64,000 bases of DNA, from contig OX485804.1 in the NCBI GenBank assembly GCA_950295325.1, positions 16,056,001-16,120,000 of the forward strand, read 5' to 3'. Each line of letters opens with the position of its first letter. Position 1 is the first letter of the stretch. A program made the translations under genes and the position numbers. The notes beneath the pieces were generated by a model. The model was not told the DNA's origin, did not search any database, and saw only the letters and a program-made list of their open reading frames with translations. The stretch is from Polytrichum commune. Lineage: Eukaryota > Streptophyta > Polytrichopsida > Polytrichales > Polytrichaceae. Below, in pieces: positions 1-51,903 of the stretch.

Positions 1-778
1 GATGGCGGCTGGTGATTGATTATCCTCATACAAATTTTGATAATTATCATAGCCAAGCATTAGAATTTAGATGAGCGCTTAAGGGTTAACCTAGAGCTTG
101 ACTAAGTGTTACCCTAAGTTTACCGCTTAAGAAACTATAGCAATTTCTATATCCATGAATATTTTTATATTTTTTAACTTTCATTTTTTCCCTTCATTCT
201 CCTTAGAATTTGTTTCTCTTTGCAAGAAAAAAAACTTCCTCGCTATTACTCCTCCTAAACATATACAAAATCTCTTAGTTTATCGGGTTATTGTATGCCT
301 CAACCTTAACCCTTAACTTCATGAGAGTCCAATTTTTAGCTTATGAATGACTCCAATATGAACATATGGTTGTTCACAAAAAATTATTAAAATCAAGCAT
401 TAACTAAAATTTCCCTTCATTGATATATTATTTATATCTAATAACTTCATATTATTTTGATTGAAAATTGTCAATTTTCTAGGGATTCTTTTGCTTACCT
501 CAAAGTGTACATCTATTCTTGATGTAATATTGAGAATTTTGGACGAAAATTTTCTTGCATATATCTATCATAATTTCTTGAAGTTGAATGATTCTAAATC
601 GATCATAAAGAAATCATAAAAATCACTAAACATTGCTACCGTATTGATGTGATCTTAAAATCATTAGCAACAACTTTCTTTTAGGTACAACTAAAACTGA
701 GATCTAGAAAACTTGCTTCTTAGATGATCTAATGAAACCACAATATGCTCCAGGAAGTTAAGGGTAAAATGCACACAC

Positions 779-3700
779 CTTGATCATATGCTGCAAAAGC
801 TTGTGAGCCAACTACTCCATTTGACACCCACCTACACCAAAAGCCCCACAGACTCACTTCAACAACAAATATAGCCATGGCAGACACAATGGATCCTATG
901 ATGTCCCAATTGTAGGAAAAACACACCTCCAAATTTTGTACTTTGAACATATGGGGACCATGTACAAGTTATGTATGTGGATGTCAACTATCCATATATT
1001 TATACATAGTTATTTTGGTATAAATTAAGTGTGGAATGTAACCCACCCCAATGACGAATCCAATAGTCCGTGTTGCAGATACAACACTTTCCGAGATTCC
1101 GGTCTGCATCAAAGAGCACACAATACTTTTGGTTAGTTTACATTGCCACATGCGGATGTCAACTTAGCATGTGATGACTCTTCTTTTGGACAAGTATAAA
1201 GCACCGGTTCACACGGTCCCCAAGTCCTAAGTCCAATGTCACTTGAGGTCAATCTGTGCAATCTCAACCGTTGAGAGCCTGGGAGTTGGGATTTACCACT
1301 TCATAGGGGTAGTCAAGTCCTAAGTCCCAAGTATGACATGGATGTCTACATGGCTACACTATTTGGAGGTGAGGTGAGGTGAGGCTAGGCTTAGGGCTTG
1401 TGTTGAGAGTTGGGTTGAGCAAAAAGCGAGACCTGACTCGCAACATAAGTCTCAAGAATTTTCATTACATAAAATGATCAAGATATGACATAAACCACAT
1501 TCTTCATGGGCTTTTGAGGCTAAAGAATTGGGACGTTATGCATGTTGGGACGTGTTGACATGAGTGTTGACTTGGACCCGGATACTTGTTATTTAGTAGT
1601 CTAAGATGTAGGATGCATTTACCTTGGTATTCTCTCGAGGAGAAGGATGTGACCATCTCCAGTGGTCACTCGCAACGATTCGTATGGGTACCTGCAACAG
1701 CCAAATCCACAATGAAATCACTCTCGGAAGATTAACGTCATAGAGTTAATTAATTGAGTAATTATTCAAAAACATTATCTTCTCATGAAGGGGACGCCAC
1801 TCTCTTCTTGCATTGCATTGATGAATGTTTATTGCCAGTAGAAGATTTATTTTGTGGACTTGATGGTTGCACAATTATGCGACGATATGCGATGATGTTT
1901 CTTTTTGCCTTTAGAGGAAATACAAGACTTTCATTTCAAGGGTGCAATTGCCTAGGACTCGTATGCTAGTAGTCTCTCTTCATCATTTTCCAACGTAACC
2001 TTATCAATTTTCTCCCAACATGAACTTGTCCAAAAAATATGCAACAAAGCTGAATTGATAAATGTATAGAAAACTGCTGTAACAGTTTTAACACTGGCAT
2101 GCAAACCTACAACCTTGCTTGAAAATAACATCGTCAAACATGTGGTATAACTGGTGCAATTGGGATGTGGAACATGAAAATTGATTAAATTTGGTGCAGG
2201 AAGTTTTGCAGCTCACCCTAGACTACTGATGATGTCCTCGCAAGTGCGCCCATCGGTGTTTAGGGTTTGTCCCCGGCGGACTTGTTTATGAGGTGTGGGA
2301 TCCGAGTCGCCAAGAGTAGAGGTGGTGCCCACAACAACATATTCATCATCATCCACCGATCGATTGGATTTAAATCTGTTGAAGATGAAGTTCAGAATCG
2401 CCAAGGGCGAAAAACAGATTTGTATAAATCTCCGCACACCGTCGAAAATGCGCTCAATTGAGAGCTCCACCAAAATCTGCAGATCCTCGATAATCCCCCG
2501 TCGGTAATCTCCTGTGTGTTTTGGCACTACGTAGTCCTTTGTTCCACTGATCAAATGCGACCGGGCCTCTATATTGTACACGTTGTTCAAGCTTGCAGAG
2601 CTAGAATCTGAAGGCAAGTCCTGGGTAATTTGTACTTCTCCTTCACTTGAATCTTTTGGAGTCAATGATCTCGTGGAAGACCTAAATCTTGGAGTCGGCC
2701 GAGTTTGAAGTTTCCCCGAGCACCTGCTTGGTGTGATCACATGATTAAACAACCCTTTCGTAATGCATCTGTGGGTAAGGTAGATGGGTCTTGAATGCTT
2801 ACTTTCTCTGACTAGTAGCCTACTTCTCATAGGATATGAAACATGTGATTAGTACGAAATGGTTCGCAAATCTAAATTGAGGCCGAAGCTGCATTCCTCA
2901 TGATTTTTGGAGCTCATAGAAAATCTCATATTCATTATCAAAGTGAAGACTCTCATGCTCTTTAACTGGTCATATAGGTCCTTTCAACTATGTTGACTTT
3001 TGAGTCTAAATTGGTGATCATATTTGAGCATGTAGTTTGATCTTTTTAAAATATATATCATTCTTGTATCTACTCTTGGAGTCACATCGAACCACACACC
3101 ACTCAAATTTAGGTGTCCGATCAGGATCAGTGGCTAAATTAGGACATCTACCTCAATCTTTATTGTTCAAGAATATCCAAAAGACTTGCATAATTGTATG
3201 AGTTTATGTTCCTTGAATTTCAAAACCAATAGATATATCCTTGAACTCTTTCAAATGAGCACCAAACAAAGGAATTTGATGCCTCTTTGAAGGGATTTTC
3301 TATTAAGAGCTCATTAGAGATTTTTGTGTAGGAGCTAAGTTTTTGAAACGTGGGTGGCACTCCTTGGACCTCCTCTTTCAATCCCAAAAACTTTGGGAGA
3401 ACTTTAGAGTCTGACCCATGAGACCCACCATACTAAACCTTCAACCCTAGCTTGACCAAAACCTGGCTATGCAATATGGGTTAACAAGCCATACATGTAG
3501 TTCATTGTAGTTATGCTTAATAAATGAGGGGGGTCACTTTATGTATAAGTTTTCAAACTCACCTCAACTTAGCCAGAAAACTTTGAGTTTGACCCGTAGG
3601 ATATTATCATTAAGCCTTGTGAGATGTTCTCTAAGGTTCTATTTGGCTTCAAGAATAAGATTTCAAGAATCAATGTCCTTGTTGACATGCATGAATGTTG

Positions 3701-6199
3701 AGCGTAGTCAAGTGGCAAGCTCTCATTGGTTGACACCTCATTGTTGCATGTATCTAAATATGGCTTGCCACCTCCCATCTACCAAGATTCAATTTAAGGG
3801 GTGCATGGCACAACCCAAATGGAATAAATCTTAGGTTATCCAAATAACCTAAGAATTATTCCAATTGCATTGGAAGTTTACATTAGATAGGCTCAATAGT
3901 GTGACCTTTTAAAGTGTGTGACTTATTGTGTTCACTTGGGGTTCCGAGTTACTAAGGTGAGGTCAATTTCACTTATTGACATGTGGAGGCTGCTACTTTG
4001 AAAATTAGGATTTCTTGCCGTATGTTCTCTATGAATTTTGTTCCAAAATCCAATATCTAGTATATTAGAAGTAACTATATTGAAAATCTACAAAATGTTA
4101 GGAATTAGTGTTAGTCGCACTAACGAGCCTATTTAGTGTACGTTAGGCTACTCAAGAAAGTTATGCCCTGAACAATGTAGAGCTCAATAGACACCATTAT
4201 TATACTTTGATGGAGAGGATAACATACAAGATTTTTAGAGGGAACAGCAACTTCCGCAAAGTTCGCTTCAAAATCGAGTTCTGCTTGCGGCGTCCGTGCT
4301 TGCTGCTGCTAGGTCGAGCATTCGGTGAGGCTTGTGAAAAACTAGGAGAGTTGAGTGAACTTCCCGCATCACCATATACACTTGATCCATCATCTGAATC
4401 ACTTCCAAAGTCCTCATCGGATTCATGCTCGTGTATGAATGCATTGAATGTCGAGACACCCCTGCGTAGCAAAAATTGACTCTGTCAAGATTATGACACA
4501 ACTCTTCTCGATTCCAAAGAGAATAACTAAGAAAAGTTAATCTTGTTCTCCTTTGATGATTTGAGTGCAGAATGAATGGACTTTGCTACTCCAAGAAGTC
4601 AAATCCTACAAAACTGAGCTGGCTTTAACCCATTCAATGTCCTGTTTATACATGCATTCATGACTTTACCAGCCCAGGAAAAACAAAGGAAAGTAAAGAA
4701 ATAAAACAAACAAAAACCCCAATGATCATGAATCTTAAATGTTCTCTGGCATGATTATATCATCATTGTTAAATTCTGAAAGAGAAAAAAGGTAAAAATT
4801 CTAAACCCTAAACCAGACACTGCAAGCATACGAGTCCAGAGGAATTGACCTACGTCACAGAAAACTTGTCTTATGTAACTAAAAAACTTGCAAATCCAAC
4901 AAAGTGGTAGATTTACATTGTTCTTTCATCGATGTGGGACGATTGCATAGGACTCATATGCTAGTAGTGAAAAGGCTTGAACTACTCAAAGACGAAAGTT
5001 ATCATGCTACCACCACATTACATCCTTGATGAAATTTCATGACTTACTCTTCCATCCAGCTTGGTAAGCGAGGGCCACGAAGTGTTGGATAAAGCTCCCA
5101 TCCTTGGATTCCGGCCAAGCTGGATTTGGCTGGCAACATCGCAAGAATGAATCCAAAGAAACTATTGATGAGCCTCACAGTGTTGTTGAATGATTCATGG
5201 CTGAATGTCTTGATGGATCTACATGAGAAAAGACAACCAATTAAGAAACCTAATGGCATTTTGGTACTAGACAATTTAGGGCCTTTACATTGTGAATCAA
5301 AGTTGTTGTAACAAGGTCCTAATTTATATGCATTAAGGCTGAAACTAGCTTACATGGGTTAATGCTTATCCTAAATATGTTAGCTTGTCAGTTTAGGCAA
5401 AACTTGGGTTAGCAAACCCAATGTTGTAACAATGTTATGGATTGCAATTTGACTCAAATCATGCTATGTTCAAGCAAATCATTGACATGCCATAACCTTG
5501 TCTATCAGATGGTAGCTACCATCCAATTCATTACATTTCCCCCCCAGAAAACACATCCTTAAGCCTCATAATTATTATTGGATCCATGCATCTTCTCTCG
5601 ATAACTTGATTCATTAGCATTAGTACCCCTCTCCCATTCCCAAAAGCTTTAGCAAAAGGTTCAACAACATGGAGTCCACGTCATGACAAAATTTAATTAT
5701 GCCCAAGCCACATGGCTCAAGTTCAAACTTGTCATTGCATAAGTGCAAGGTTGCTCTCTTGCACTATGTGTGTACAAAACCTACTCCATATCTTCAAAAG
5801 TTGTTATGGTGACTAACTTACACTACTTGACAATCACTTGTCATTCTCATGTATCTAAATGATGCAATAACTAACTTATTTAGGAGTCATGCTATTTGAC
5901 TACGGATAGATGTCTACATTTCAGTTCAAAGTCACATGCAAGTGGTGCTTCCCCCCATGGTTCCTACAACCAAGAGGAATTTGTCTGTTTTCTCCACTCT
6001 ACTGCCCCCATTATTCAAATTTTTATGAATTAAAATTAAAAACTTGATCTCACAAGAACCCTATTGCATCCTACAATATCCATAACCTCCCTTGGCAACT
6101 ATATCTTAACATATGAGATTTGGTGCACCAATAGACTGCAAAAACCAATTGCACTCACTCTTTCGCGATTCCCAGAACATTGTCAACCAGGCTCTGCAT
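779..6199 (-). CDS. Acid-lipase-like alpha/beta hydrolase gene, 5' half (7 exons, cut by window edge)
   Basis: Exons on the minus strand are 6159-6199 (ATG), 5048-5218, 4228-4461, 2217-2723, 1623-1691, 1047-1103 and 779-831. All have GT-AG borders and all junction phases agree, giving about 377 codons. The product matches what I recall of Arabidopsis At1g18460/At1g73920, about 700-residue lysosomal-acid-lipase-like hydrolases. Landmarks are the start MQSLVDNVLGIAKE, GWELYPTLRGPRLPSWMEE (about residues 52-70), an acidic Ser/Asp-rich stretch, RRGIIEDLQ, NTDGRTCEDIISSLGYPY, LLLERIPR, the oxyanion-region LQHGLLDSS and WVSNGVVGSQAFAAYDQG. The nucleophile elbow (GxSxG) and the other catalytic residues lie beyond the left edge. 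Role: probably ester-lipid hydrolysis; the hydrophobic stretches suggest membrane association (inference). Introns are 215-1504 bp and contain dispersed repeats. Identification is strong; the start rests on similarity and on a good donor (GTGAGT) after exon 1. Confidence -1.
2745..3180 (+). repeat. Dispersed repeat family R1, copy 1 (in lipase intron 3)
   Basis: About 430 bp beginning near AAGGTAGATGGGTCTTGAATG and running through TAGGATATGAAACATGTGA, TTTTGGAGCTCATA, TCATATAGGTCC and AGGTGTCCGATCAGGATCA. The same ordered blocks recur at 58140-58370 and 59860-60215. It has no coding capacity and no terminal repeats that I could find. It lies inside the intron between exons 4 and 3 of the lipase-like gene. 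Confidence -1.
3290..3425 (+). repeat. Dispersed repeat R2, copy 1
   Basis: A block containing TATTAAGAGCTCAT, TTTGGACCTCCTCTTTC-like sequence and AACTTTGGGAGAACTTTAG. It recurs, diverged, at about 10845-10985. Both copies are intronic, one in the lipase-like gene and one in the QueC-like gene. Confidence -1.
4855..4965 (+). repeat. Palindromic hairpin element H, copy 1 (in lipase intron 2)
   Basis: Imperfect inverted repeat with arms around CTTGCAAATCCAAC and GTGGTAGATTTACATTG, followed by the block GGACTCATATGCTAGTAGTG. Related copies are at about 19745-19860, 19905-19985 and, inverted, 31145-31250. The trailing block alone also occurs near 1948-1975. Probably a MITE or MITE fragment. Confidence -1.
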
Positions 6200-37491: not shown

Positions 37492-37650
37492 TACTAAACC
37501 CTCCGAAACCTACGCAAACCTCTGAAGACCTCACTTCGAAACGATGGTCGCCTCACAGTGCTGAACATCTTCAATCATGAGGCACACCAAATCGGCGCCC
37601 TCAGCGCAGGAAGGGAGAGCCGAGGATGCGAGAGGGGCGGTTGACAAATT

Positions 37651-39027
37651 CCTATCGTAACCATGACCAAAACCAACACACTCCAACATGTACAAGACCA
37701 TTTTAACGATTTCTCAATTTCAAATTGAATTTAAAGCGAATAAAAATTAAAAATTAAAATCAATATGTCACAATATCAAATGACCATAAAAACTTCCAAA
37801 ATCCAAACTTCCTTGATGTAGCAACTATACAAAAAATTATCACAAACTTAGGCCTCGAGGTGTGAGAGTCGTTCAAGATTTTATAATGTTGTGACTAATG
37901 TGACTAATACCTTGGCAGGGTATTAGTCACATTAGTCACATCCTTATACAATCGTCTATAATTTCATTTTATTGTATATAAATTTGCATGTGAAACATTC
38001 CTATCATAACCATGACCAAAACCAACACACTCCAACATGTACTTGACCATTTTAATGATTTCTCAATTCCAAATTGAATTTAAAGACAATAAAAATCAAA
38101 AAAATAAAAACAATATGTCACAATATCAATTGACCGTAAAAACTTCCAACATCCAAACTTCCTTGATGTAGCAACTGTACCAAAAATTATCATGAACTTA
38201 AGCCTCAAGGTGTGAGCGTCATGCAAGATTTTATAATGTTGTGATTAATGTGACTAATACCTTGGCAGGGTATTAGTCACATTAGTCTCATCCTTATACA
38301 ATCGTCTATAATTTTATTTTATTGTATATGAATTTGCATGTGAAGAAATTCCTATCATAACCATGACCAAAACCAACACACTCCAACATGTACTAGACCA
38401 TTTTAACGATTTCTCAATTTCAAATTGAATTTAAAGAGAATAAAAAAAATGTCACAATATCAATTGACCGTAAAAACTTCCAAAATTCAAACTTCCTTGA
38501 TGTAGCAACTGTACAAAAAATTATCATAAACTTAAGCCTCAAGGTGTGAGAGTCGTGCAACATTTTATAATGTTCTAACTAATGTGACTAATACCTGGGC
38601 AGGGTATTAGTCACATTAATCACATCATTATACAATCGTCTCTAATCTTATTGTATTGTATATGAATTTGCATGTGAAACATTCCTATCATAATCATGAT
38701 CAAAACCAACACACTCGAACATGTACTAGACCATTTTAACGATTTCTCAATTTTTAATTGAATTTAAAGAAAAAAAAAAAAATCATTACAATATGTCACA
38801 ATATCAAATGACCGTAAAAATTTGCACAATTGAACCTTCTCTAATGTGGCAACTATACCAAAAATTATAACAAAGTTAAGCCTCACGGTGTGAGAGTTGT
38901 GCAAGATTTTATAATGTTGTGACTAATGTGACTAATACCTCGGTAGGGTATTGGTTACATTAGTCACATCATTATATAATCTTATAAAAATTTATTTTAT
39001 TTTATATAAAATTGCATGCAAACCATT
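37651..39027 (+). repeat. Left foldback arm: four ~345-bp tandem units
   Basis: Units begin with CCTATC(A/G)TAACCATGACC at about 37651, 38000, 38351 and 38684; a fifth, drifted start is near 39028. Spacing is 333-351 bp. Each unit carries the hairpin GTGACTAATGTGACTAATAC - short loop - GTATTAGTCACATTAGTCAC (for example near 37892-37940). Unit bodies also share AACTTCCTTGATGTAGCAAC and CTCAAGGTGTGAGAGTCGTG. Noncoding. Confidence -1.
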
Positions 39028-39444
39028 CTTATCTTGACAATGACAAAAACCAACACATACTTATAGGTGTTTGGCCGTTCTATTATTCTCTTAATTTAAG
39101 CTAAATTTGAGGTTATTTAAAAACTACCATGATAACATTTAATTAATTAGTAATTGAAATCATTTAAAATATTAAATTAAATAACTATGAATTACGTTAT
39201 ACTTAACATTTGTATATAGGATTTTTTACTTTATGCTCTTTTACTTTAATATATTACTTTTATATTTAATATACATTTTTAGTGGACCTTAAAATTTGAG
39301 TCCTTTTATAGATCCTAAACCGTTTTCTTACATCCTTTCGTCAAGCAATATATTCATTTATCTTAATTGTATTATTGAGCTTTTGTGCACAATGACATCC
39401 TCGTCAAACCATAAATCACACAAGTATGCTTCACTAGTAGACCA
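39028..39444 (+). repeat. Left foldback arm, inner unique segment
   Basis: AT-rich sequence matching the reverse complement of 49559-49970. Its inner end holds an ATG-led frame on the plus strand (from about 39392: MTSSSNHKSHKYASLVD). It is shared with the minus ORF of the right arm and diverges just after position 39444. Confidence -1.
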
Positions 39445-39457
39445 TATCAACATGTGC

Positions 39458-39885
39458 TGTCACGTGAGGTGACATCGGGGGCTAAGTCACGTCAATTTAG
39501 GAGTAAATGGACTCCACTAGGAGTCCATGTGTGTTGGGATGAGTAACGGACTCCATTGGGAGTCCTAGTTAGTTGTTCATCCACTCCATGGATGAACTCC
39601 ACATAGGATTGGGGTTGTATGGAGAGGAAGGCCTCTTGACTTGCCATTGTCAAGTCAAGTCTTGTGAGTGTGTTTTTGAGAGAGAGAGAGCTTGTTGTTG
39701 CTTTCTCATGGCTATGGTGTAGTAGATTATGAGTAAAGCCTTTGCATTCTTTCTCCACCACTTGCACTCTTGGATTCTCCCTTTGTGGAGTGAGAGATAG
39801 CTTGACTCTTGTGTGTGAATTTTAGAGTTTCTTAAGCTTTGTAAGGAGACATTTTAGTTCTTAAGCTTGGAGAGAGAAACCCTCA
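39458..39885 (+). repeat. 5' LTR (~428 bp)
   Basis: Starts TGTCACGTGAGGTGACATCG and ends AGAGAAACCCTCA. Against the 3' LTR I count three substitutions, all G here and A there, plus a 3-base and a 1-base indel. It contains an AG-rich tract (GAGAGAGAGAG). No clear tRNA primer-binding site follows directly; a weak TGG-led candidate is near 39951, so the 5' LTR could extend further than its match to the 3' copy. Confidence -1.
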
Positions 39886-41009
39886 TACTTGACAACAATT
39901 GTTCAAATTTTTCATTTTTGGTTGTATTTCTGAGCCAGAATGGCCCAGTAATGAGAGCAAATGAGTGATACAAGTGTTTGAAAGCTTAGTTCGTCATTTC
40001 TTGCAATCCTCAAGAAGATTTTGAGAGAAATCTTCCCATTTTTCTTTTGTTGTCTCTTGTATTTTCTTCAATTGTTGATGTTTGAATATTGAGATTCCAT
40101 TTAGTTTCGAGATTCTCAAGTCACATTTTCTTGCTTGCAAATTGTTAAGCAAAGTTTAATTTAAATACAAACATAAACCAAATTCAAAATCCGATTTAGT
40201 TTTAATTTTGGTGGAGCTCCGGACGGATCCGGAGCTCACCAGACCCTCTTGGAGCTCCTGGAGCTCCTGGAGCTCCGGTTCTGAACTCTAACGGGCGGCG
40301 CAAACCGGGCCGGGGCCGGGCAGGCGCAAGCCGGGCCCCCAGGCCAGCTAGGCGGGCGGGCGGGCTCGGCCAAGCCCAGGCTGGCTCCCCCCTTTACAGG
40401 GGCACCTTACCTTGCAGGTAAGGCCACTTTATTTTTTTATTTTTCATTAGTTTAAGTTAATTAAATTAATTAGATTAAGTTAATTAAGTTAATTAAGTTT
40501 TTTTTTTTTTTTTTTTTAACTTTCACTTTCCAATTTGGCATTTCATTGTCACAAACTTTGAGGCTCAAATTTGGGGGCATACTAGCTCCGATTGAAGTGA
40601 AATTTGAGCCTATTTTGTGTGAAATTTGCCAAGGAATCCAATGGTGTAATTGGATTTTTGATTGGAAGTCAAAATCATTGCTGAAATTGCTAATTTCAAC
40701 GCTGATTTTTGTTTTTGGGAGCAAATTAACTCCGATTGGAGTGAAATTTGAGCCTAATTTGTGTGAAATCTTCCTAGGAGTCCATTGGTGCACTTAGTTT
40801 GTTGATTGGAGTTCATAATCACCTTGGAAATGAGCCTTTTCAACGCTGATTTTTCATTTTAATTACCAATCTCAAACCTTTGCACAATTTTGGAATTCTG
40901 GGGGCATAAACACTTGGCATTTGGCAAGGGATTGCCATTTAGATAGCCCGCAACAGGTGCAGGTTGCCATTACCTTGTAGATAGTTGCAGGTACTCAAGT
41001 GATTATTTT
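39886..41009 (+). other. Retrotransposon 5' leader with GC island, poly-T and tandem duplication
   Basis: Untranslated leader before the gag ATG. From 40210 to 40400 it is very GC-rich, with repeated GGAGCTCC palindromes and GGGCCGGGGCCGGGC. A T20 run follows (40498-40517). From about 40560 to 40860 there is a roughly 160-bp tandem duplication (TCCGATTGAAGTGAAATTTG against TCCGATTGGAGTGAAATTTG). This strong secondary structure may serve packaging or translation, but that is inference. Confidence -1.
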
Positions 41010-43334
41010 ATGGTGCAAACTAGGAGCCGATATTATAGATCTCCATCACCAGATTATTTGGAAAACGTGCATACCACAAATCTTGAGCCAGAGGTAGATA
41101 CCAACGAGGCTTTTGAGCCTATTTCGGCGTTGGACACTACTAGTAGGCTTCGGATTTGGAGTGTCGGCACGTTCGACGAAATGGAGGACGATCGCCACAA
41201 TTCAGTGCGTGATCGGTTCTCAGGTCGAGCTGGGGGAATTTCCTTGCCCGATTGGAAACTCCGGTTTCGTACCTGGATTAAGGAGAAACGCCAAAGGTCT
41301 TCCAATTTCAATGATTGGTATGCCTTTGAACTTCTGCCTCAGCATTTGGAGTATGAGGCACTCCAAACTTATGAACACTGGACAGAGGGTCATCAACGAC
41401 AACTTCGGGAGGTGGAGCAGTATTGGGAGGCTCGGGTTGAGCTCATTTCAGCCCTTAAGGATGGGGTGGTTGCTACCTTAGCTCCACCCACCTTAAAGGA
41501 GGAGGAATCGCCGGCGGAGTCTAAGGACACGGAACTGGCACTTGGGCCAATGGTGGCTAGCAGTAGCACGGCAACCCTTTCACGGGTGGCACGTGCTACA
41601 CAGGCAGCATTGACGGCTGTTGGTCCACCACCTCCGTTTAACCCCCTTACTGAATTTGTCGCACATTTGGAAGTGGAATATGGTGGGTTTTGGCGAGACC
41701 AGATGCAGCGCATCCAAGATTTCCGCCGAGAGAAGGATGATACTCCACGGACCATGTATACGCGACTCGCGCGATTTGTTGTGGAGTCGGGAGGTGTTTT
41801 TGCTGAGAGTAAGCTTGTTAAAATCTTTTTGTCTAAGATTGACAAGCGGCTACTTGAGTTGGCATCACCTCGGATTATCCTCGACTACGAGGGCCGAGCT
41901 ACGCTTGCACAAGCGTTTGCCGTGGTTGAGAGATGTGATCGGGCTCTTTGCCAACATGATGCCACGGATATGGTATCTTGGATGACAGAGAGTCCGAAAC
42001 CAAGAAGAATTGTCACAGCTACTAGTAGTTTAGCTGAGACTCAACCCGTCAAGGAGCAAAACATTTTGCATTGTTGGGGTTGTGGAGAAGCTGGTCATTC
42101 GAATAATGATCCCAATTGTCCTAGGAAGAAGAAAACTCAGCCTTTGGGAAAATTAAAACAAAAGATGGAACCAGTAAAGGCAGGGGACAATTCTAAGAAG
42201 AGACAATTGAAATGTAACCATTGTGGTGGCACTAATCACGATGTGGATCATTGTTTCCAACTTCATCCTGAGATGCGGCCTGCCAGTTATGTCACTGGAA
42301 AGTCTCCAAGGGAGCAGAGTCTTGAGGCTAAGGTGGCAGAGCTTGAGCAAAAGCTCAAATCTTCTGTATCTTTTGCTCAAATTTCTGAGCCGCATGCGGG
42401 TGGTGGCACCTCGGGGTCGGACATGTATATGTTTGGAGCATCTGGAGAGGTGGTGGCGGCGGCTTCTACTCGCTCACAAACATTGGCAGATGCGGTGGCT
42501 TCCACGAGTGGTGGTAGCAACGAGGTGCTACATCCTCGCCATGCCGGACCAGCTGATCAAATTGGTCAAGCACGTTTACCTCTTTCATTTGGATTGGTAG
42601 ACACCACTGTTGTTGGGGCTAAAAACCCTGTACCTTTGAGAGATGGGGATTCCATCTCGAAGGATGTTACGCAGGCATTGGCCTATAAAATTCTCCATAT
42701 GCCAATTTTCTCGGGTTCGGAGTTTATGGCTTCGGATTTCAAGCCTGCTGCAGTTTTTCATTTAGCTGGGAGAATGTTAGAAGGTAAGGCGGATTTGCCA
42801 TCCCTTCAAGTATCCCAAACTGTGGTTGACGTACCTGTGGCTGAGGAGGTGGAGGACTTAGCCAATTTGCGAACGAGTCTTGCGGATGCGGCGATCATTG
42901 CTTTTGGTAAGCAAACTGATATTCCTCCAGCATCAATTTCAGCAGTGGATACGTCATTTTCGAATTATGCATCGGGAGCGGCATATCTTGCAGACATTTC
43001 TGCAAGGCCTGCTCGCGAACGGCATAATTTGCAACCTGGAGTTGTACGGCTGATGAACGACAAATCTTTGTTTGTCGTTTCACGCACGGATATGCCCACT
43101 ATCCGTGCTACACCACTGAGAGTTATGATGGATTCCGGTGCTCAACCGGTTATGATTGGCAAAGGACTTGCTGACAGTCCTGGATTGACGCCAGCAAGTT
43201 TGGATCCTTGTCCATTCACTATTGTGACTTCAGTAGGGGGCACTGAACGTGCAACAGGCACCTCTACGTTTGATTTTTCATGTGGGGGCAGGGCCTACTT
43301 ACACTCATTTGTCAATGAAGTGTGTTGTTACTAA
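41010..43334 (+). pseudogene. Retrotransposon gag and start of protease (774 codons)
   Basis: ATG at 41010. The N-terminal 280 residues are charged and tryptophan-containing (for example LPDWKLRFRTWIKEK at about 77-91), as in plant gag capsid regions. Two zinc knuckles follow: CWGCGEAGHSNNDPNC near residue 355 (last spacing longer than canonical CX2CX4HX4C) and CNHCGGTNHDVDHC near residue 402 (canonical). A coiled-coil-like stretch (about 430-450) and a low-complexity linker precede the protease signature MMDSGAQ, with the presumed catalytic Asp at residue 708 (43131-43133). The frame then shifts in the G5 run at 43284-43288 and terminates at 43334, while the rest of the protease continues one base over. 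Gag builds the particle and binds RNA. The frame is otherwise uninterrupted. Confidence -1.
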
Positions 43335-43400
43335 TGCTACCAACTATGATATACTTGTTGGTCAGCAAGCTCTTTACCCACTTGGCTTTGGTTTGGATAA
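43080..43400 (+). pseudogene. Retropepsin-type aspartic protease domain, frameshifted
   Basis: The domain starts in the gag frame with MMDSGAQPVMIGKGL (flap and catalytic Asp region). It ends in the next frame with ATNYDILVGQQALYPLGF, the typical hydrophobic-Gly close of retropepsins. The switch coincides with five Gs (43284-43288), and one surplus G accounts for it. A mutation is likelier than programmed shifting because the break falls inside the folded protease. The domain would cleave the polyprotein into gag, methyltransferase, RT and integrase parts. Confidence -1.
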
Positions 43401-43789
43401 TTGGACGGAAGAGGCATGGATTAGACCGGGATGGTCCACTGGAGATGGCAGGAAGGTATTTATTCCCGTCACATTTGCAGCCACTGCTATGACTATGGTT
43501 GCGGAGGCCATGTTTGGTTGCAGCGGTTCAGTTGCAGATTTGCCTTGTGCTCCAGTTTTATTGGAGGAAACAATGGACTACACTTGTAATGCGGCAGAAC
43601 AACAATTTTTACCATCTTTTCAAATTCATGCTCGTCATGTCAAGGATCCACCTCCACCATGGCGAACTCCTAAGGAGTTATCCGACCATTGTCGACACAT
43701 TGTAAAAGATTTGGATCTTGGAGAGGCACCTCCAACTTCACCCTCATTTTCTTTTGCTCAACCCATTCGTTGGCAACCATCACCTGAAG

Positions 43790-44760
43790 GTATTGTCCTT
43801 GCGGAGATCTTTGGAGGCATTGGCATAGGTTTGGCGGCAGTGTTGGAAGCTGGAATTACAGTTTGGCGATATATTCATGTGGACAATGGGTATGCAGCCA
43901 ACAGAGCCGTCCGACACCACATCCAACAATTGTTGTTGAGATACCCTGCACAATTGTCAGCCTCTGCCATTCATGGATGTTGTGGTCAACTTCCTCAAGA
44001 TGTCACTATGATTAGTGATGAGGATTTGAGAAGGTTGGGCCACGTGGATTTGATTATTGCATGATGGCCTTGTCAAGGCCATTCGCGGGCAGGAACTGGC
44101 CAGGGATTGGATGATCCTAGGTCTAGTTTGGTTGCGGATTTGATGCGATTGACGTAATGGTGGTTTACCCACCTATCAACTCCGCCAGGGTACATTTTCG
44201 AAAATGTACCATTATTGGGTGATACCCGGCACAAAGTGGTGAAGGATAGTGAGTACATTAACCAAATTCTGGGTACTCCAACATTTCTGGATGCTGCATC
44301 TTTGGGATCCTTTGCTCATCGGCCTCGTTGGTTTTGGACCAACTTGGTATCACCTCGGGTGCTTTCAGTGGCGATTGCCCGCATTCCCCGCCTTATGGAT
44401 CGCAGGGTGGATGACATTTTAGATGATCATCGTGTTTCCTTGACAGTTACCAAAGATGACACCTTGTCATTTGCATTAATTAACAAGGTGGGAATTCCGA
44501 GAGGTGCACTACCTACTTTTGTGACATATCCACAGTCTTTTGCATTTCGATCTCGTGGACCTGGCATGGTTTGGGATTAAAAATCCCAAGCTTATGAGGA
44601 GCCTACGGCAGATGAGCGGGAACGCGCCATGGATTTTCTTACAGGTACCACGGCTGCTCACGGGCTTCAGGAAGGTCAGAGACGTTTCCTATTGGGGCAA
44701 GCTATGGATCTTAATAGCATTGTGTGGATAATTGGAATTTGTCTTGCTACTCAACAACGT
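43790..44760 (+). pseudogene. DNMT3-like DNA (cytosine-5) methyltransferase domain within pol
   Basis: Motifs of C5-methyltransferases appear in canonical order, all in the pol frame. Motif I (AdoMet binding) is EIFGGIGIGLAAVLEAGI, from 43804. Motif IV is WPCQGHSRAG, with the catalytic Cys codon at 44071-44073. LDDPRSSL follows. Motif VI is FENVP (ENV at 44200-44208), motif VIII is AHRPRWFW (HRPR from 44317), and motifs IX/X include ERERAMDF and LLGQAMD, ending near 44750. GHVDLII before motif IV, and DAASLGSFAHRPRWFWTNL, parallel DNMT3 (FDLVIGG, DAKEVSAAHRARYFWGNL). The order is not rearranged as in plant DRM. Every motif residue I can name is present, but stops interrupt the domain: TGA directly before motif IV (44062), TAA (44155) and TAA (44578). 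The likely role is methylating host or element DNA. It lies between protease and RT, an unusual place for an extra domain. Confidence -1.
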
Positions 44761-45108
44761 ATGGATGACCAATTGCTTACTCTGAGGGCAGAGAACAATG
44801 GTCAGGGGGCAATGGAGCCGCAATCCAAGGATCATATTGAGGTCAATGACACCGAGGGATTATTTCCTTTGAAACTTCATGTTGCGGAAGAGCTTCGAGC
44901 CCAACGTGTTTTTTCGGCTTTGGCCCAAGAGTTTGGGAAGTTGGAGGCCCATAAAATGTTTCCACTTCTATTTCTTGGTGATACTTCATATGTGGGTAGC
45001 TATTTAGCTAAACAAACTGATTGTAGTGGAGAGAATACGCATTTGGATTCAAGTGCAGATGATGGGGGCAAAGGTGTTGCCCTCTCCACGGACTAGCAAT
45101 CACAGGCT

Positions 45109-46251
45109 GTGCTGGCACCAATTGGCAATCCTTCTATGAAGAAGAAAACCACGGAGTTTGACGATTGGCCAATTGAAGTGGGGCCAAAGCTTACTGGTGC
45201 CGAAGCACGAAAGGTACGGGCATTTATTCGCTCTTACCGTAATTGTTTTGCCTTTAGTCTTCATGATCTTGAAGGATATAAAGGTAAACATGTTCGTATT
45301 CAACTCGAGGACGACCACCCTATTTTCAGACGGCCGTACAGACTTAGTACCTCTGAAAGGTTGGGTGTTCAAACTCGATGTCAAGAGTTATTGGCAGCGG
45401 AATTGATTGAACTCTCTAATGGAGAGTATGTTTGTGCCACGGTTATGCCGTCAAAGAAGGATATCTTTGGCAACTGGACGGAAAAACGGATGTGTGGTGA
45501 TTATCGTCCAGTCAACTGCAAGACCAAATCGGATCGATATCCAATGCCGATGCCGGAGGAGTTGTTTGATGCACTGGGATTTTCTAGAATCTTCAGCACT
45601 CTGGATTTGAGGTCTGGTTATCACCAATTACCTTTGTTGTTGGGTGATCGGGTGAAGACCGCATTTTGGGGAATTGATAAAGATGGCAAGGATCAACTTT
45701 ATCATTGGAAATTTCTGCCATTTGGTCTCAAGAATGCACCAGCTGAATTTCAGCGGGTGATGGACCAATTATTGGCTAGTTTGCCGTTTGCTAGATGTTA
45801 CATTGATGATGTTATCATCTTTAGTAATAGTCCACATGATCATGTGAGACATTTGCAAGCGGTATTTGAACGACTTCAACGGTGGGGACTCTGTTTACAT
45901 CATGGAAAATGTAAGTTTTTCCATGATCAATTGCCCTATTTAGGCCACATGATTGTTCCTGGCGGTCTTGGTGTGCAACAGGCGAAGGTGGATGCTTTGC
46001 ACAAAATTCCCGCACCTAGTGATGTACCACGGCTTCGTGCATTTCTAGGATTGGCAAATTATTATAGGAGGTTTGTCAAAAACTTTAGTTTGATTGCCAA
46101 ACCTCTTACCATTCTCACGGGGAAAGACCAACCATGGATTTGGAGTCGGGAACAACAACATGCATTTGATACATTGAAGCAGAGGCTCAGTTCAACGCCA
46201 GTGCTTCGACGCCCGGATGTGTCTAGAGCTTTTCAATTGCACACGGATTAG
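45109..46251 (+). pseudogene. Reverse transcriptase domain of the retrotransposon
   Basis: A continuous 380-codon segment of pol between stops at 45094-45096 and 46249-46251. It shows the Ty3/gypsy RT landmarks: a fingers region near HPIFRRPYRLS, CGDYRPVN, DRYPMP, FSTLDLRSGYHQL (first catalytic Asp), FLPFGLKNAPAEFQRVM, YIDD at 45799-45810 (catalytic Asp pair), YLGHMI and LGLANYYRRFV. It makes cDNA from the element's RNA. No key residue is missing; only the flanking stops disable it. Confidence -1.
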
Positions 46252-46782
46252 AGTGCAGTGGGATTTGGAGCGGTATTGACACAGAAAGATGAAGAGGGAA
46301 ATGAATATGTGGTGGCTTATGCATCTAGAAGCAATAATAGTGCTGAATCTAATTATTCTTCTTATGAAGGCGAGGCCTTGGCGGCCGTTTGGGCCATTGC
46401 ACATTTTCGACCTTATTTTTATGGGCAAAAGTTTACTTTGGTGACTGATCATCAACCTTTAAAATGGCTTATGGAATCAGATAAGCTCACCGGGAAACTT
46501 GCTAGGTGGGCATTGTTACTTCAGGAATATGATTTTAAAGTTGTTCACCGAGCAGGAATTGCCAACTTGGATGCAGACCGATTGTCTCGCAATCCAAGTC
46601 CTTCAGATGCGGATTTAACTGGAGTCAGGTGGCATGGAGATTGTGATCGTGAGGCAGTGTCGAGTTGGCATGCTGCCACATATCTCACAATGATGTCGGG
46701 ATTGGCTGCTGAGATCCTTGTAGAAGAACAGGATGAGGAGGTTGATAAATCTCTCGTTGTTAGTGATGTGTGGGAAGACTAG
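46200..46782 (+). pseudogene. RNase H domain and linker
   Basis: The first acidic residue is in HTD just before the TAG at 46249. The domain resumes with SAVGFGAVLTQ, YEGEALAAVWA (Glu), VTDHQPLKWL (Asp) and HRAGIANLDADRLSR, the standard Ty3/gypsy RNase H series. It degrades the RNA strand of the RNA-DNA hybrid. A 60-residue acidic linker ends at TAG 46780-46782, before the integrase. Confidence -1.
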
Positions 46783-46788
46783 GCGGTC

Positions 46789-48050
46789 TTGCACAAACTT
46801 CAACACGGGATATTTCCTCTTGGACTATCTGCTATGGAGCGAGATAGAGTTAGTCACCGGATAACAAGGTTTCGTTGGGCAAACAGCTTGTTATTTTGTG
46901 TGTGGCCGAACGGAACGAGACGCATCGTTCCAAGGCCACATCAAAGAGCTTCTTTGGTGCGGCAAGTGCACGAGGAGCTTGGACATTTTGGAGTGCGAAG
47001 GACGCACTCTATGTTGCGCAACCAATATTGGTGGACTGGTATGTATCAACAGGTTGCCACTTATGTTTCTCGGTGTGAAGTATGTGACCGGGTCAGGTCA
47101 AGTTTTAATACTTTGTCACCTCAACTTCAGCCTTTACCTATTATGGGCTTGGGATATCGTTGGTCTTTGGATTTTTCCGGACTGCTTACTATCACTCCAC
47201 GTGGTTCCAAGTATGTGCTTGTGATGGTGGAGCATTTTAGTAAGTGGATTGAACTCGTGGCTCTTCCCCAAAATTCCTCAGAATTGGCGGCTATGGCATT
47301 TCTTGATCGAGTTTTGGCACGGTTTGGAGCACCTACAGAGGTGTTGACGGATCAAGGGAGATAATTCCTTGGATCTTTCGAGGCTTTGTCTACCAAGGCT
47401 TTGATTGATCATTGGACAACTTCCACAGATCACCCTGAGACAGATGGCTTAGCTGAACGAGTTGTTCAGACGGTTAAACGCGGTTTGCGGAAGTATGGAT
47501 TGCTTCATGGCAACCATCGCGATTGGGACTTGATGTTACCATGGATAGCAATGGGTTATCGTTTCAGCAGGCAAGCATCTTTGGCATCTTATAGTCCTTA
47601 CCAACTCTTGTATGGACGGGAACCAATTTTACCTAACTCGATGCGAGAGAAATTGGCTCCCGTGGTAAATTTGGATGATCCAGATGTTTGGGCTCAATGT
47701 CTTCATGACCGAGCAACGTTCTTCCAAAAGGCCATGCCTATGGCTATGGAGAACTTAAATATTGCTCAACATCGTGATACATTACGGTATGCCCGGATCC
47801 GCATTAGAGCTTATCGACCTCAGGTTTGTAGATTTTCCAAGGGAGATTATGTTTACTTGCAACGGGAGGCGCCTACGACATTGGATGTCAAGGCTGGGCG
47901 CACGATTTTGCGGGTAAAAGATGTCTTGCCAAGTGGTATATTATTGTTTGAAGGCAAGGATGGACGGGAATGTCGTGAGCATTCAAAGAATTGTGCTCCA
48001 TGTCACCTTCCCATCGACGGCTCTGTGCATCCCGAGTTGGCGGTTGTACC
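46789..48050 (+). pseudogene. Integrase domain of the retrotransposon
   Basis: The zinc-binding HHCC module is visible as HEELGHFGVRRTH ... CEVC. The catalytic D,D,E core has WSLDFSG, LTDQGR and ETDGLAERVVQ. A TAA at 47362-47364 follows LTDQGR, where gypsy integrases usually have E or Q then F. The C-terminal part (to about residue 48050) has the GDYVYLQ-type SH3-like segment. It inserts the cDNA into host DNA. All catalytic residues I can identify are present. Confidence -1.
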
Positions 48051-48063
48051 ACAGGGTCTGCCT

Positions 48064-48198
48064 TGTTATGTTTGTGGAAAGAAGAAAGGAGCTGCAACAA
48101 TGTTATTGTGCGACCAATGTCAACGTGGATGGCACATGGCATGTTTGACACCTCCCCTTTTTACTCTTCCTTCTGGCAATTGGGTTTGTCCTCGTTGT
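48064..48198 (+). pseudogene. PHD finger at the C-terminus of pol
   Basis: A 45-residue C4-H-C3 pattern: CYVC, 11 residues, CDQC, QRGW-H, MA-C, then LPSGNWVCPRC. The Trp two residues before the last Cys pair, and the LLC-DQC-x4-H spacing, are hallmarks of PHD fingers, which bind histone H3 tails. It lies just downstream of the integrase, where chromoviruses carry a chromodomain, so guiding insertion to particular chromatin is a natural hypothesis. The frame is open here and ends at TGA 48238-48240. Confidence -1.
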
Positions 48199-48240
48199 CG
48201 GAAAGCCTCTCATTCCGTGGCCGTTAATGGTCATGATTGA

Positions 48241-48563
48241 GGATTTTGTGGATGTTTACCACATGTTTTAGTGGTGAAGTTGTTATTTAGTTGGTTGAAA
48301 TTTTATGGGATTAAAAATCACATTGAAAGAGTTATCCAAGAATTCAACATAAATTGTTGAAGGCGATTAAGGATGGGCTCAAATTGCACCCAGCCTACAG
48401 TTCTTGGATTACTTTCTCAATCATGAATTTAATTCCTTAGATTACCACTACCCAATTGAATATGTATAGATGTAGCAACAACTTCATCATGTTCAACAAC
48501 TCTACCGATGAGTGTGTTTGTTCCTAGCCGATTGGAGGGGCTCCTTATCTGCTAGTGGGGGCA
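48241..48563 (+). other. Retrotransposon 3' untranslated region with possible polypurine tract
   Basis: Noncoding sequence after the pol stop. CTAGTGGGGGCA at 48552-48563 is the best polypurine-tract-like stretch. It precedes the 108-bp repeat rather than the LTR start, which complicates the definition of the 3' LTR. Confidence -1.
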
Positions 48564-48671
48564 CTTGAAGAGGTGGTTGTTTAGCATTTTAGTTTGCTAT
48601 TTTATTTTGCTAATTGATGTTGACGCCGACACTCGATCTGTTGTGTTTAACGATCTTAGTTTATACGATAG
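48564..48671 (+). repeat. 108-bp direct repeat X, copy left of the 3' LTR
   Basis: CTTGAAGAGGTGGTTGTTTA to TTATACGATAG, identical to 49104-49211 except at two positions (both T here, C there). It is absent beside the 5' LTR. Confidence -1.
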
Positions 48672-48672
48672 C

Positions 48673-49102
48673 TGTCACGTGAGGTGACATCGGGGGCTAA
48701 GTCACGTCAATTTAGGAGTAAATGGACTCCACTAGAAGTCCATGTGTGTTGGGATGAGTAACGGACTCCATTGGGAATCCTAGTTAGTTGTTCATCCACT
48801 CCATGGATGAACTCCACATAGGATTGGGGTTGTATGGAGAGGAAGGCCTCTTGACTTGCCATTGTTGTCAAGTCAAGTCTTGTGAGTGTGTTTTTGAGAG
48901 AGAGAGAGCTTGTTGTTGCTTTCTCATGGCTATGGTGTAGTAGATTATAAGTAAAGCCTTTGCATTCTTTCTCCACCACTTGCACTCTTGGATTCTCCCT
49001 TTGTGGAGTGAGAGATAGCTTGACTCTTGTGTGTGAATTTAGAGTTTCTTAAGCTTTGTAAGGAGACATTTTAGTTCTTAAGCTTGGAGAGAGAAACCCT
49101 CA
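48673..49102 (+). repeat. 3' LTR (~430 bp)
   Basis: Matches 39458-39885 apart from three G-to-A differences and two small indels (TTG inserted in the CCATTGTTGTCAAG region; one T fewer in GAATTTAGAG). Confidence -1.
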
Positions 49103-49103
49103 T

Positions 49104-49211
49104 CTTGAAGAGGTGGTTGTTTAGCATTTTAGTTTGCTATTTTATTTTGCTAATTGATGTTGACGCCGACACTCGATCTGTTGTGTTTAACGATCTTAGT
49201 TTACACGACAG
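49104..49211 (+). repeat. 108-bp direct repeat X, copy right of the 3' LTR
   Basis: Second copy of 48564-48671, ending TTACACGACAG. It runs directly into GTGC, which also precedes the 5' LTR, so the inserted DNA may end with this copy. Confidence -1.
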
Positions 49212-49281: not shown

Positions 49282-49707
49282 TTACAGCAGAAGTTTACAT
49301 CTTTTCCCCTCCTCTCTGAACTTTTCAAGACAATTATCACATAGTTTATGAAAATGATGAATAATTGTACCTTTTGAGAGATCTGCATTTTCACCGTTGA
49401 ACAATTTTATGAAAATGTCATTTTTCAATGTGTATTCACAAGAAATAACATACATTGATGAATGACGTTGTGGTTTCCGATGTGCAAAATATGAGCATCC
49501 GACAGATCCAATTTCATTGAATGTCAGTTCATATAGGTTTTCGTCCTCCAAAAGTTTCTGGTCTACTAGTGAAGCATACTTGTGTGATTTATGGTTTGAC
49601 GAGGATGTCATTGTGCACAAAAGCTCAATAATACAATTAAGATAAATGAATATATTGCTTGACGAAAGGATGTAAGAAAACAGTTTAGGATCTATAAAAG
49701 GACTCAA
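49282..49707 (-). CDS. Foldback-element ORF of unknown function (141 codons; likely start MTSSSN)
   Basis: A minus-strand ORF starting within the right inverted arm and reading into the loop. An internal ATG gives a product of about 107 residues beginning MTSSSNHKSHKYASLVD, with later segments GCSYFAHRKPQRHSSMYV and HHFHKLCDNCLEKF (Cys/His-rich). The same N-terminus is encoded, in mirror orientation, at the inner end of the left arm (about 39392-39444), where it is cut off at the arm border and then by the retrotransposon. I recognise no transposase or other domain. It could be an exon of the foldback element's own protein or a captured host fragment. Confidence -1.
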   Translation of the reverse strand: MSPFIDPKLFSYILSSSNIFIYLNCIIELLCTMTSSSNHKSHKYASLVDQKLLEDENLYELTFNEIGSVGCSYFAHRKPQRHSSMYVISCEYTLKNDIFIKLFNGENADLSKGTIIHHFHKLCDNCLEKFREEGKRCKLLL

Positions 49708-49971
49708 ATTTTAAGGTCCACTAAAAATGTATATTAAATATAAAAGTAACATATTAAAGTAAAAGAGCATAAAGTAAAAAATCCTATATACAAATGTTAA
49801 GTATAACGTAATTCATAGTTATTTAATTTAATATTTTAAATGATTTCAATTACTAATTAATTAAATGTTATCATGGTAGTTTTTAAATAACCTCAAATTT
49901 AGCTTAAATTAAGAGAATAATAGAACGGCCAAACACCTATAAGTATGTGTTGGTTTTTGTCATTGTCAAGA
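49559..49971 (-). repeat. Right foldback arm, inner unique segment
   Basis: Reverse complement of 39028-39444. The innermost 145 bp differ at one visible position. Confidence -1.
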
Positions 49972-51903
49972 TAAGAATGGTTTGCATGCAATTTTATATA
50001 AAATAAAATAAATTTTTATAAGATTATATAATGATGTGACTAATGTAACCAATACCCTACCGAGGTATTAGTCACATTAGTCACAACGTTATAAAATCTT
50101 GCACAACTCTCACACCGTGAGGCTTAACTTTGTTATAATTTTTGGTATAGTTGCCACATTAGAGAAGGTTCAATTGTGCAAATTTTTACGGTCATTTGAT
50201 ATTGTGACATATTGTAATGATTCTTTTATTTTTTATTTGCTTTAAATTCAATTAAAATTTGAGAAATCGTTAAAATGGTCTAGTACATGTTCGAGTGTGT
50301 TGGTTTTGATCATGATTATGATAGGAATGTTTCACATGCAAATTCATATACAATACAATAAGATTAGAGACGATTGTATAATGATGTGATTAATGTGACT
50401 AATACCCTGCCCAGGTATTAGTCACATTAGTTAGAACATTATAAAATGTTGCACAACTCTCATACCTCGAGGCCTAAGTTTGTGATAATTTTTTGTATAG
50501 TTGCTACATCAAGGAAGTTTGAATTTTGGAAATTTTTATGGTCATTTGATATTATGACATATTGTTTTGATTTTTTTGATTTTTATTCTCTTTAAATTCA
50601 ATTTGAAATTGAGAAATCGTTAAAAGGGTCTAGTACATATTGGAGTGTGTTGATTTTGGTCATGCTTATGATAGGAATTTCTTCACATGCAAATTCATAT
50701 ACAATAAAATGAGATTATAGACGATTGTATAAGGATGAGACTAATGTGACTAATACCTTGCCAAGGTATTAGTCACATTAGTCACAACATTATAAAATCT
50801 TGCACGACTCTCACACCTTGAGGCGTAAGTTTATGATAATTTTTGGTACAGTTGCTACATCAAGGAAGTTTGAATTTTGGAAGTTTTTACGGTCAATTGA
50901 TATTGTGACATATTGTTTTTATTTTATTTTTTTTTATTGTCTTTAAATTCAATTTGAAATTGAGAAATCGTTAAAATGGTCTAGTACATGTTGGAGTGTG
51001 TTGGTTTTGGTCATGGTTATGATAGGAATTTCTTCACATGCAAATTCATATACAATAAAATAAAATTATAGACGATTGTATAAGGATGAGACTAATGTGA
51101 CTAATACCCTGCCAAGGTATTAGTCACATTAGTCACAACATTATAAAATCTTGCACGACTCTCACACCTTGAGGGTTAAGTTTATGATAATTTTTGGTAT
51201 AGTTGCTACATCAAGGAAGTTTGAATTTTTGAAGTTTTTACGGTCAATTGATATTGTGACATTTTTTTTTTTGATTTTTTGATTTTTTAAAATTGAATTT
51301 GAAATTGAGAAATCATTAAAATGGTCTAGTACATGTTGGAGTGTGTTGGTTTTGGTCATGATTATGATAGGAATGTTTCACATGCAAATTTATATACAAT
51401 AAAATGAAATTATAGATGATTGTATAAGGATGTGACTAATGTGACTAATACCTTGCCAAGGTATTAGTCACATTAGTCACAACATTATAAAATCTTGCAC
51501 GACTCTCACACCTTGAGGCTTAAGTTTATGATAATTTTTGGTACAGTTGCTACATCAAGGAAGTTTGAATTTTGGAAGTTTTTACGGTCAATTGATATTG
51601 TGACATATTGATTTTAATTTTTAATTTTTATTCGCTTTAAATTTAATTTGAAATTGAGAAATCGTTGAAATGGTGTTGTACATGTTGGAGTGTGTTGGTT
51701 TTTGGCATGGTAATGATTGGAATGTTTCACATGCAAATTTATATACAATAAAATGAAATTATAGACGATTGTATAATCATGTGACTAATGTGACTAATAT
51801 TTTGGCGAGGTATTAGTCACATTAGTCACCACATTATAAAATCTTGCACGACTCTCACACCTTGAGGCTTAAGTTTATGATAATTTTTGGTTTAGTTGCC
51901 CAC
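49972..51903 (-). repeat. Right foldback arm: about five and a half ~350-bp tandem units
   Basis: Unit landmarks (ATAGGAATGTTTCACATGC or close variants) are near 49972, 50321, 50671, 51022, 51366 and 51716, 344-351 bp apart. Units contain the same GTGACTAATGTGACTAATAC hairpin and the reverse complement of the left-arm unit. The array ends mid-unit at about 51903 (GGTTTAGTTGCC). Confidence -1.

Follow-up and report, generated by a model that had tools for sequence, protein, structure and literature searches.

A decayed Ty3/gypsy retrotransposon copy in a land plant carries a DNMT3-like cytosine methyltransferase domain

Cytosine methylation is a main route by which plants silence retrotransposons. 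What, then, is a cytosine methyltransferase (MTase) doing inside a plant retrotransposon? A first-pass annotation of the stretch of DNA analysed here (the window, 64,000 nt) had proposed that a Ty3/gypsy element carries a DNMT3-like MTase and may use it on its own or on host DNA, for example to tame itself or to hide from other silencing. It had also noted that retrotransposon-borne DNA methyltransferases occur in dinoflagellates and in Klebsormidium, and both are described in the available text of a 2018 paper (PMC5890265). Here we ask what the domain is, whether it belongs to the element, and what it might do.

A single Ty3/gypsy LTR retrotransposon with an MTase is present in the window, on the forward strand at 39456-49211; a comparison of the relatives' proteins with the window returned no match beyond these limits. 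The element starts with a 5' LTR remnant (39456-39885) that lacks roughly the initial 105 bp and forms a direct repeat with 48671-49102. A likely primer-binding site (39887-39899) precedes an open reading frame (ORF) at 40947-43334, in which the segment from the in-frame ATG at 41010 to a frameshift (41010-43334) encodes gag, CCHC knuckles and an aspartic protease (PR). The Pfam matches to knuckles and protease are under the cut-off, the protease being assigned from the motif DSGAQP together with its weak match. In the relative P0001 gag, PR and MTase form a single ORF, which has the same MVQTRSRYYRSPSPDYLE start as the window gag. The MTase domain (43741-44763) is followed by reverse transcriptase (RT, 45478-45954; PF00078, E = 6.9e-30), RNase H (RH, 46216-46530; PF17917, E = 4.4e-38), the zinc-binding and core domains of integrase (IN, 46939-47427; PF17921, E = 3.3e-17, and PF00665, E = 4e-11) and a PHD finger 3' of the integrase (48064-48198; PF00628, E = 1.3e-10). 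A polypurine-tract-like sequence, AGTGGGGGCACT (48554-48565), abuts the 3' LTR (48566-49102), which by sequence comparison is 537 bp long and bounded by TG...CA. It is followed by a TCT junction (49103-49105) and by the initial 106 bp of another LTR copy (49106-49211; 104/106 bases identical), all on the forward strand. The PR-RT-RH-IN order, the TG...CA LTRs, the polypurine tract and the Pfam matches to RT, RNase H and integrase bear out the assignment of the carrier to Ty3/gypsy.

Pfam detected no chromodomain, the mark of chromoviruses, behind the integrase; the PHD finger sits in its place. Its best solved relatives, among the best 60 of 91 matches, include CHD4, PHF12, PHF21A and UHRF1, and several of these bind unmodified H3K4. 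A PHD finger behind the integrase of an MTase-bearing Ty3/gypsy element is new here.

The surroundings of the element support the presumed land-plant host, as a plant lipase gene of the AB-hydrolase family has its exons on the reverse strand at 777-5217, with named related proteins from Physcomitrium, Diphasiastrum and Rhodiola. In an unrooted tree of eight lipase rows (the window, these three and four others), the window lies outside the Physcomitrium group (support 100) and outside the group that includes Diphasiastrum and Rhodiola (support 80), a position between mosses and vascular plants; the simplest reading would be a bryophyte that is not one of the mosses sampled. The element itself lies within a large palindrome built from ~350-bp tandem repeats (37642-39444 and 49559-51900), the arms of which are 99% complementary over 38770-39444 and 49559-50233. 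A fragment on the reverse strand at 52902-53390 matches Pol_BBD (PF22936, E = 4.9e-10) and is probably a Ty1/copia remnant.

The window translation matches the DNA_methylase family (PF00145) with an E-value of 2.9e-9, which passes the curated cut-off. Motif I, IVLAEIFGGIGIG, begins at 43792 and is followed by PCQ (44068-44076), ENV (44200-44208), HRPR (44317-44328) and an ERERAM motif, such that motifs I, IV (with the PCQ cysteine), VI (ENV), VIII (RxR) and IX/X occur in canonical order, in one frame, between protease and RT, as had been noticed from the letters of the sequence. The best relative is 73% identical across all 334 residues, far above chance, and this together with the Pfam match rules out a chance resemblance.

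Searching the solved proteins with the single sequence returned DNMT3A as the closest match (E = 5.9e-5). A family profile built from nine members gave a clearer ranking: among the best 60 of 78 matches, DNMT3A (1.7e-24) and DNMT3B (5.8e-22) were followed by a chain labelled solely DNA methyltransferase (2.1e-14), which we take to be tobacco DRM, and by DRM2 (3.4e-11), M.HaeIII (2.2e-10), a DNMT2-type enzyme (1.4e-7), M.HhaI (1.3e-6) and DNMT1 (0.6). Capture of a bacterial or phage-type MTase is less likely, as DNMT3 and DRM outrank the bacterial enzymes. Profile pieces 13-54, 88-236 and 293-322 are collinear with DNMT3A, the last of them weakly, so the domain has no DRM-like rearrangement; in the best DRM2 match, profile positions 16-143 fall at the C terminus of the chain. 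Judged by these sequence comparisons the domain is of the DNMT3 class by its catalytic domain, nearer to DNMT3 than to DNMT1, DNMT2, DRM or the bacterial enzymes. The earlier assignment to DNMT3 thus stands, and a position outside the C5-methyltransferases did not emerge. In full DNMT3 proteins an ADD domain, a PWWP domain or both precede the catalytic domain, and they guide the animal enzymes. Neither domain gave a Pfam match in three pieces of the window or in seven relatives, and 'DNMT3-like catalytic domain' is therefore the proper name.

The copy in the window is dead, which the first-pass annotation had overlooked. One frameshift (within approximately 43240-43334) and six in-frame stops interrupt it, the stops lying at 44062, 44155 and 44578 in the MTase domain and at 46249 (RNase H), 46780 and 47362 (integrase) in pol. 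By eye, the relatives examined are open where the window has its stops and frameshift. Being broken, this copy cannot itself methylate DNA, whether for self-taming or for hiding. Its insertion appears recent: the two LTRs (39456-39885 and 48671-49102) differ by three transitions over 429 aligned bases and by four gap columns. From this LTR age 0.9 to 1.8 premature stops would be expected where six are seen (P = 0.0003 to 0.01, a rough value as the age is set by three differences), and the copy may therefore have been defective already before it was inserted. A calculation of CpG depletion was uninformative.

The place of the MTase between protease and RT, which the first-pass annotation had assigned to the pol reading frame, stands; its inclusion in the pol part proper probably does not. 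By eye, 17 of the 19 nearest relatives (P0001-P0019 except P0002 and P0014) end their ORF within one short segment behind the MTase. At this segment the window reads TAG CAA TCA (45094-45102), in frame with RT, and this fits UAG-CAR-YYA, the consensus of type I readthrough in plant viruses according to the available text of PMC3542737. The readthrough hexamer has a frequency of approximately 0.002 per position and is absent after seven other stop codons and after the stop at 44155. As the TAG at 45094 coincides with the end of the gag-side ORF in near relatives, the MTase is probably the last domain of a gag-protease ORF and outside pol proper. An MTase that closes the gag-side ORF ahead of a readthrough-type stop is new here, and the enzyme should accordingly be made in Gag-like amounts.

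The TAG at 45094 could instead be one more decay mutation, like the remaining internal stops of this copy, in a family whose living members read gag-PR-MTase-RT as one continuous ORF. Seven type A proteins (type A being the domain order of the window element; see below) do have MTase and RT joined in one predicted protein, namely P0029, P0048, P0049, P0052 and the Marchantia models P0025, P0032 and P0038, which counts against extending the gag-side placement to the entire family, although the Marchantia gene models could run across a stop. The coinciding ORF ends in the 17 relatives and the low chance of the hexamer match make decay an unlikely origin for this particular stop.

Does the MTase recur in related elements? 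Two protein searches, each of which scored the 8000 candidates with the most shared words, identified 113 distinct proteins with the MTase domain, and 111 of them contain a further retroelement domain. The exceptions are P0036, in which no further retroelement domain was detected, and P0113, a protein with helix-turn-helix domains that does not belong to a retroelement. Insertion into a host gene in a single copy, which the first-pass annotation had named as an outcome that would speak against its reading, is ruled out by these 111 proteins. All 113 were retrieved through the MTase, and the set therefore cannot reveal the share of related elements without one.

Most of the 113 proteins come from environmental or sequence-archive assemblies. 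The named hosts are Marchantia polymorpha (nine proteins), Calypogeia fissa (one), Sphagnum troendelagicum (one) and Closterium (two); Haematococcus lacustris contributed one weak, partial match (E = 8e-5). The nine Marchantia proteins, out of 47 in the first search, derive from two gene sets, and some may represent the same locus. No protein named as Klebsormidium is among the 113, most of which carry no host name. In the MTase tree, the window and P0001-P0019 (54-73% identical) form a clade of 20 rows with a support of 100; a Marchantia-Calypogeia-Sphagnum group (support 100) joins it in a common clade (support 99). P0026, 95% identical over 127 residues, was too short for this tree. The land-plant members of the MTase-bearing retrotransposons are new here, contrary to a 2019 statement that stresses tracheophytes.

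In viral contigs, a search with P0001 found no DNA of close relatives, and a search with alignment A1 yielded 29 loci, whose best segments are 29-61% identical. An MTase ORF was obtained from 27 of these loci and used as outgroup; one locus examined closely, L029, is prophage-like.

If the domain were a functionless passenger retained by chance, its catalytic residues would not be expected to persist. The motif IV cysteine is present in 103 of 105 aligned rows, the window included (one tyrosine, one gap), the motif VI glutamate in all 105, and the two motif VIII arginines in 102 and 103 rows, respectively (two gaps for the second). Mean pairwise identity over 1653 pairs is 0.388 for the MTase vs 0.446 for RT-RH; in the comparison with integrase the values are 0.393 and 0.430. 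Catalytic residues that are nearly invariant, in an MTase whose identity is near that of RT-RH, speak for purifying selection on the MTase at the protein level. The window copy is broken within the MTase domain, as a passenger might be, but near-invariance across 105 rows at a mean identity of ~0.39 makes the passenger explanation very improbable.

Two domain orders occur among the 113 scanned proteins: type A reads PR-MTase-RT-RH-IN-PHD where complete, and type B reads RT-RH-MTase-IN-PHD. The window element has the type A order. The sister type, B, is exemplified by P0042, P0053, P0055 and P0078, in which the MTase lies between RNase H and integrase. Labels were assigned from position alone, A for an MTase before RT, or after protease where RT and integrase are missing, and B for an MTase after RT or RNase H; seven rows with unreadable order (six Bq, one q) were kept out of the counts. 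A PHD finger lies behind the integrase in 50 of 60 integrase-bearing proteins, in both types. For P0091 the precomputed domain matches include a chromodomain (PF00385) as well as a PHD finger.

Nine of the 113 proteins were dropped from the MTase alignment for length, leaving 105 rows with the window, of which IQ-TREE used 104. Both resulting trees separate the types without exception (56 A vs 42 B rows, support 0.984, in FastTree; 56 A vs 41 B, UFBoot 100, in IQ-TREE), and the same split appears in the RT-RH tree (21 A vs 41 B, again without exception; support 1.0, and UFBoot 100 in a second tree). Pairwise identities of MTase and RT-RH are correlated (Spearman 0.67 over 1653 pairs; reached by 0 of 999 permutations in a Mantel test), as are those of integrase and MTase (0.55; 0 of 999 permutations). 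Since the MTase and RT-RH trees are both divided by domain order, the MTase is, as read from these alignments, inherited together with RT-RNase H over a long time. The integrase tree did not recover the split, its best grouping comprising 44 of 51 rows with a support of 0.27, and this counts against a simple congruence of all domains.

The different position of the MTase in the two types could also reflect two or more captures, types A and B each having taken a host DNMT3-like domain into a different place of the polyprotein. When a partial DNMT3A and the 27 viral-contig MTases were added as outgroups, giving a tree of 120 rows, DNMT3A came out among the retroelement sequences: it belongs to an 88-row group (support 0.74) with every one of the 46 type B rows, uncertain ones counted, and 40 of the 45 of type A. 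Taken literally, this would make the retroelement enzymes non-monophyletic. This DNMT3A consists of 214 residues in three pieces, the support is weak, and the viral-contig MTase of L029 lies inside type B, which marks the tree as noisy. The PHD finger that both types share behind the integrase likewise stands against separate captures, and we consider them possible but doubtful.

The ends of the element are circularly permuted. The left end begins at LTR position 106, and on the right the complete LTR is followed by TCT and by LTR positions 1-106 once more, such that both breaks lie at one LTR position with one base common to both. In the TCT junction, T corresponds to the base after the 5' LTR and CT to the two bases before the 3' LTR. 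The LTR-TCT-LTR junction and the coinciding breaks fit a two-LTR circle opened at a single point, and the locus looks like such a circle after integration, which would be new here. No target-site duplication was seen by eye at the LTR ends, and its absence is explained if a two-LTR circle integrated.

The putative primer site starts at 39887, directly after the single linker base that the LTR-LTR junction assigns. It is complementary over 13 nt to the element's own 3' LTR (48861-48873) and over only 9 nt to the 5' copy. Complementarity of at least 13 nt was found for 2 of 1953 random 30-mers of the window (2000 draws, of which 47 within LTR regions were skipped), and no tRNA-type primer-binding site was seen by eye. 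The self-complementary site suggests Tf1-like self-priming, new here for a Ty3/gypsy element without a chromodomain. In plants, the available text of PMC6317226 describes self-priming for the Tcn1 and TAR lineages.

Taken together, the dead copy in the window was probably inserted not long ago and descends from an ancient Ty3/gypsy lineage of streptophytes, perhaps of green plants at large, that encodes a DNMT3-class MTase within the Gag-side part of its polyprotein; the particle would carry this enzyme, which would methylate the DNA of the element itself. The MTase would be translated at the end of Gag-protease, freed by the protease and kept in the particle where the cDNA forms. Occasional readthrough of UAG-CAA-UCA would yield RT-RNaseH-integrase-PHD, leaving the MTase in Gag-like rather than Pol-like amounts. 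The enzyme would methylate the new DNA of the element de novo, probably at CG, before or at insertion, and the PHD finger may direct integrase towards chromatin whose histone tails are in a particular state. Least certain is what the element gains: it might pass as methylated self DNA or moderate its own activity. Against this reading stand the integrase tree, the three Marchantia gene models that join MTase and RT, and the missing ADD and PWWP domains. The nearest published kind, KnitGypsy-Dnmt3, was moreover without activity in yeast, a result that its authors call inconclusive in the available text of PMC5890265; according to the same text, the DNMT3s of Symbiodinium DIRS elements perform de novo CG methylation in yeast. 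A more far-reaching version, in which a green-plant Ty3/gypsy lineage acquired DNMT3 once and early and kept it as a particle enzyme, and in which the land-plant elements use a Gag-level MTase before a leaky UAG on their own pre-integration cDNA while the PHD finger picks the chromatin, we offer tentatively, as the less likely case; it would amount to a self-methylating strategy that persisted alongside the methylation system of the host.

An MTase made with Gag, which binds the RNA of the element, might also act on RNA, its own or tRNA, in the manner of DNMT2, and in the available text the 2018 authors brought up RNA as a target for their LINE type (PMC5890265). The family profile prefers DNMT3 to DNMT2 by many orders of magnitude (1.7e-24 vs 1.4e-7), and an RNA target seems quite improbable. 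In the preferred reading, a de novo type MTase of the lineage's own, conserved nearly like RT over liverworts, moss and charophyte, implies that methylation probably serves the element at some step. Retrotransposon parasites of plants and their algal relatives would then be long-standing carriers of a tool that their hosts use against them. As such proteins occur in the model plant Marchantia polymorpha, this reading is directly testable.

A literature search by titles and the starts of abstracts, with subscription journals mostly outside its range, found, among the papers listed, none on a land-plant MTase-bearing retrotransposon. With the 2018 paper as its source, a 2025 survey mentions streptophytes and dinoflagellates as groups whose retrotransposons contain DNMT3; in the text available it gives no land plant as an example (PMC12344493). 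The words 'PHD' and 'methyltransferase' do not occur in the available main text of a survey of plant LTR elements (PMC6317226), and the accessible portions of PMC6453930, PMC9516144 and PMC2864245 do not mention a land-plant element of this kind.

Among known systems, SymbioDIRS-Dnmt3 and SymbioLINE-Dnmt resemble the window element in that a DNA methyltransferase is borne by a retrotransposon, but their carriers belong to unrelated classes according to the available text of PMC5890265. Host DNMT3, compared here through the animal enzymes only, shares the motif order and is the best profile match; unlike it, the window domain lacks ADD and PWWP and is part of a retroelement polyprotein. The Tcn1 and Tf1-sushi chromoviruses are self-priming (for Tcn1 in plants, see the portions available of PMC6317226), as is suggested here from sequence, whereas the window element has a PHD finger and no chromodomain behind the integrase. 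The closest counterpart is KnitGypsy-Dnmt3 of Klebsormidium nitens, as described in the available text of PMC5890265: it too is a Ty3/gypsy polyprotein of the streptophyte lineage with an intronless, unrearranged DNMT3-class domain and conserved residues. Compared by description only, KnitGypsy-Dnmt3 resides in an alga, has DIRS-like repeats and encodes its MTase in the Pol ORF, and neither a PHD finger nor self-priming is mentioned for it in that text; the window element resides in a land plant, has ordinary LTRs, places its MTase in the gag-side part ahead of a UAG, and carries both a PHD finger and a candidate self-priming site.
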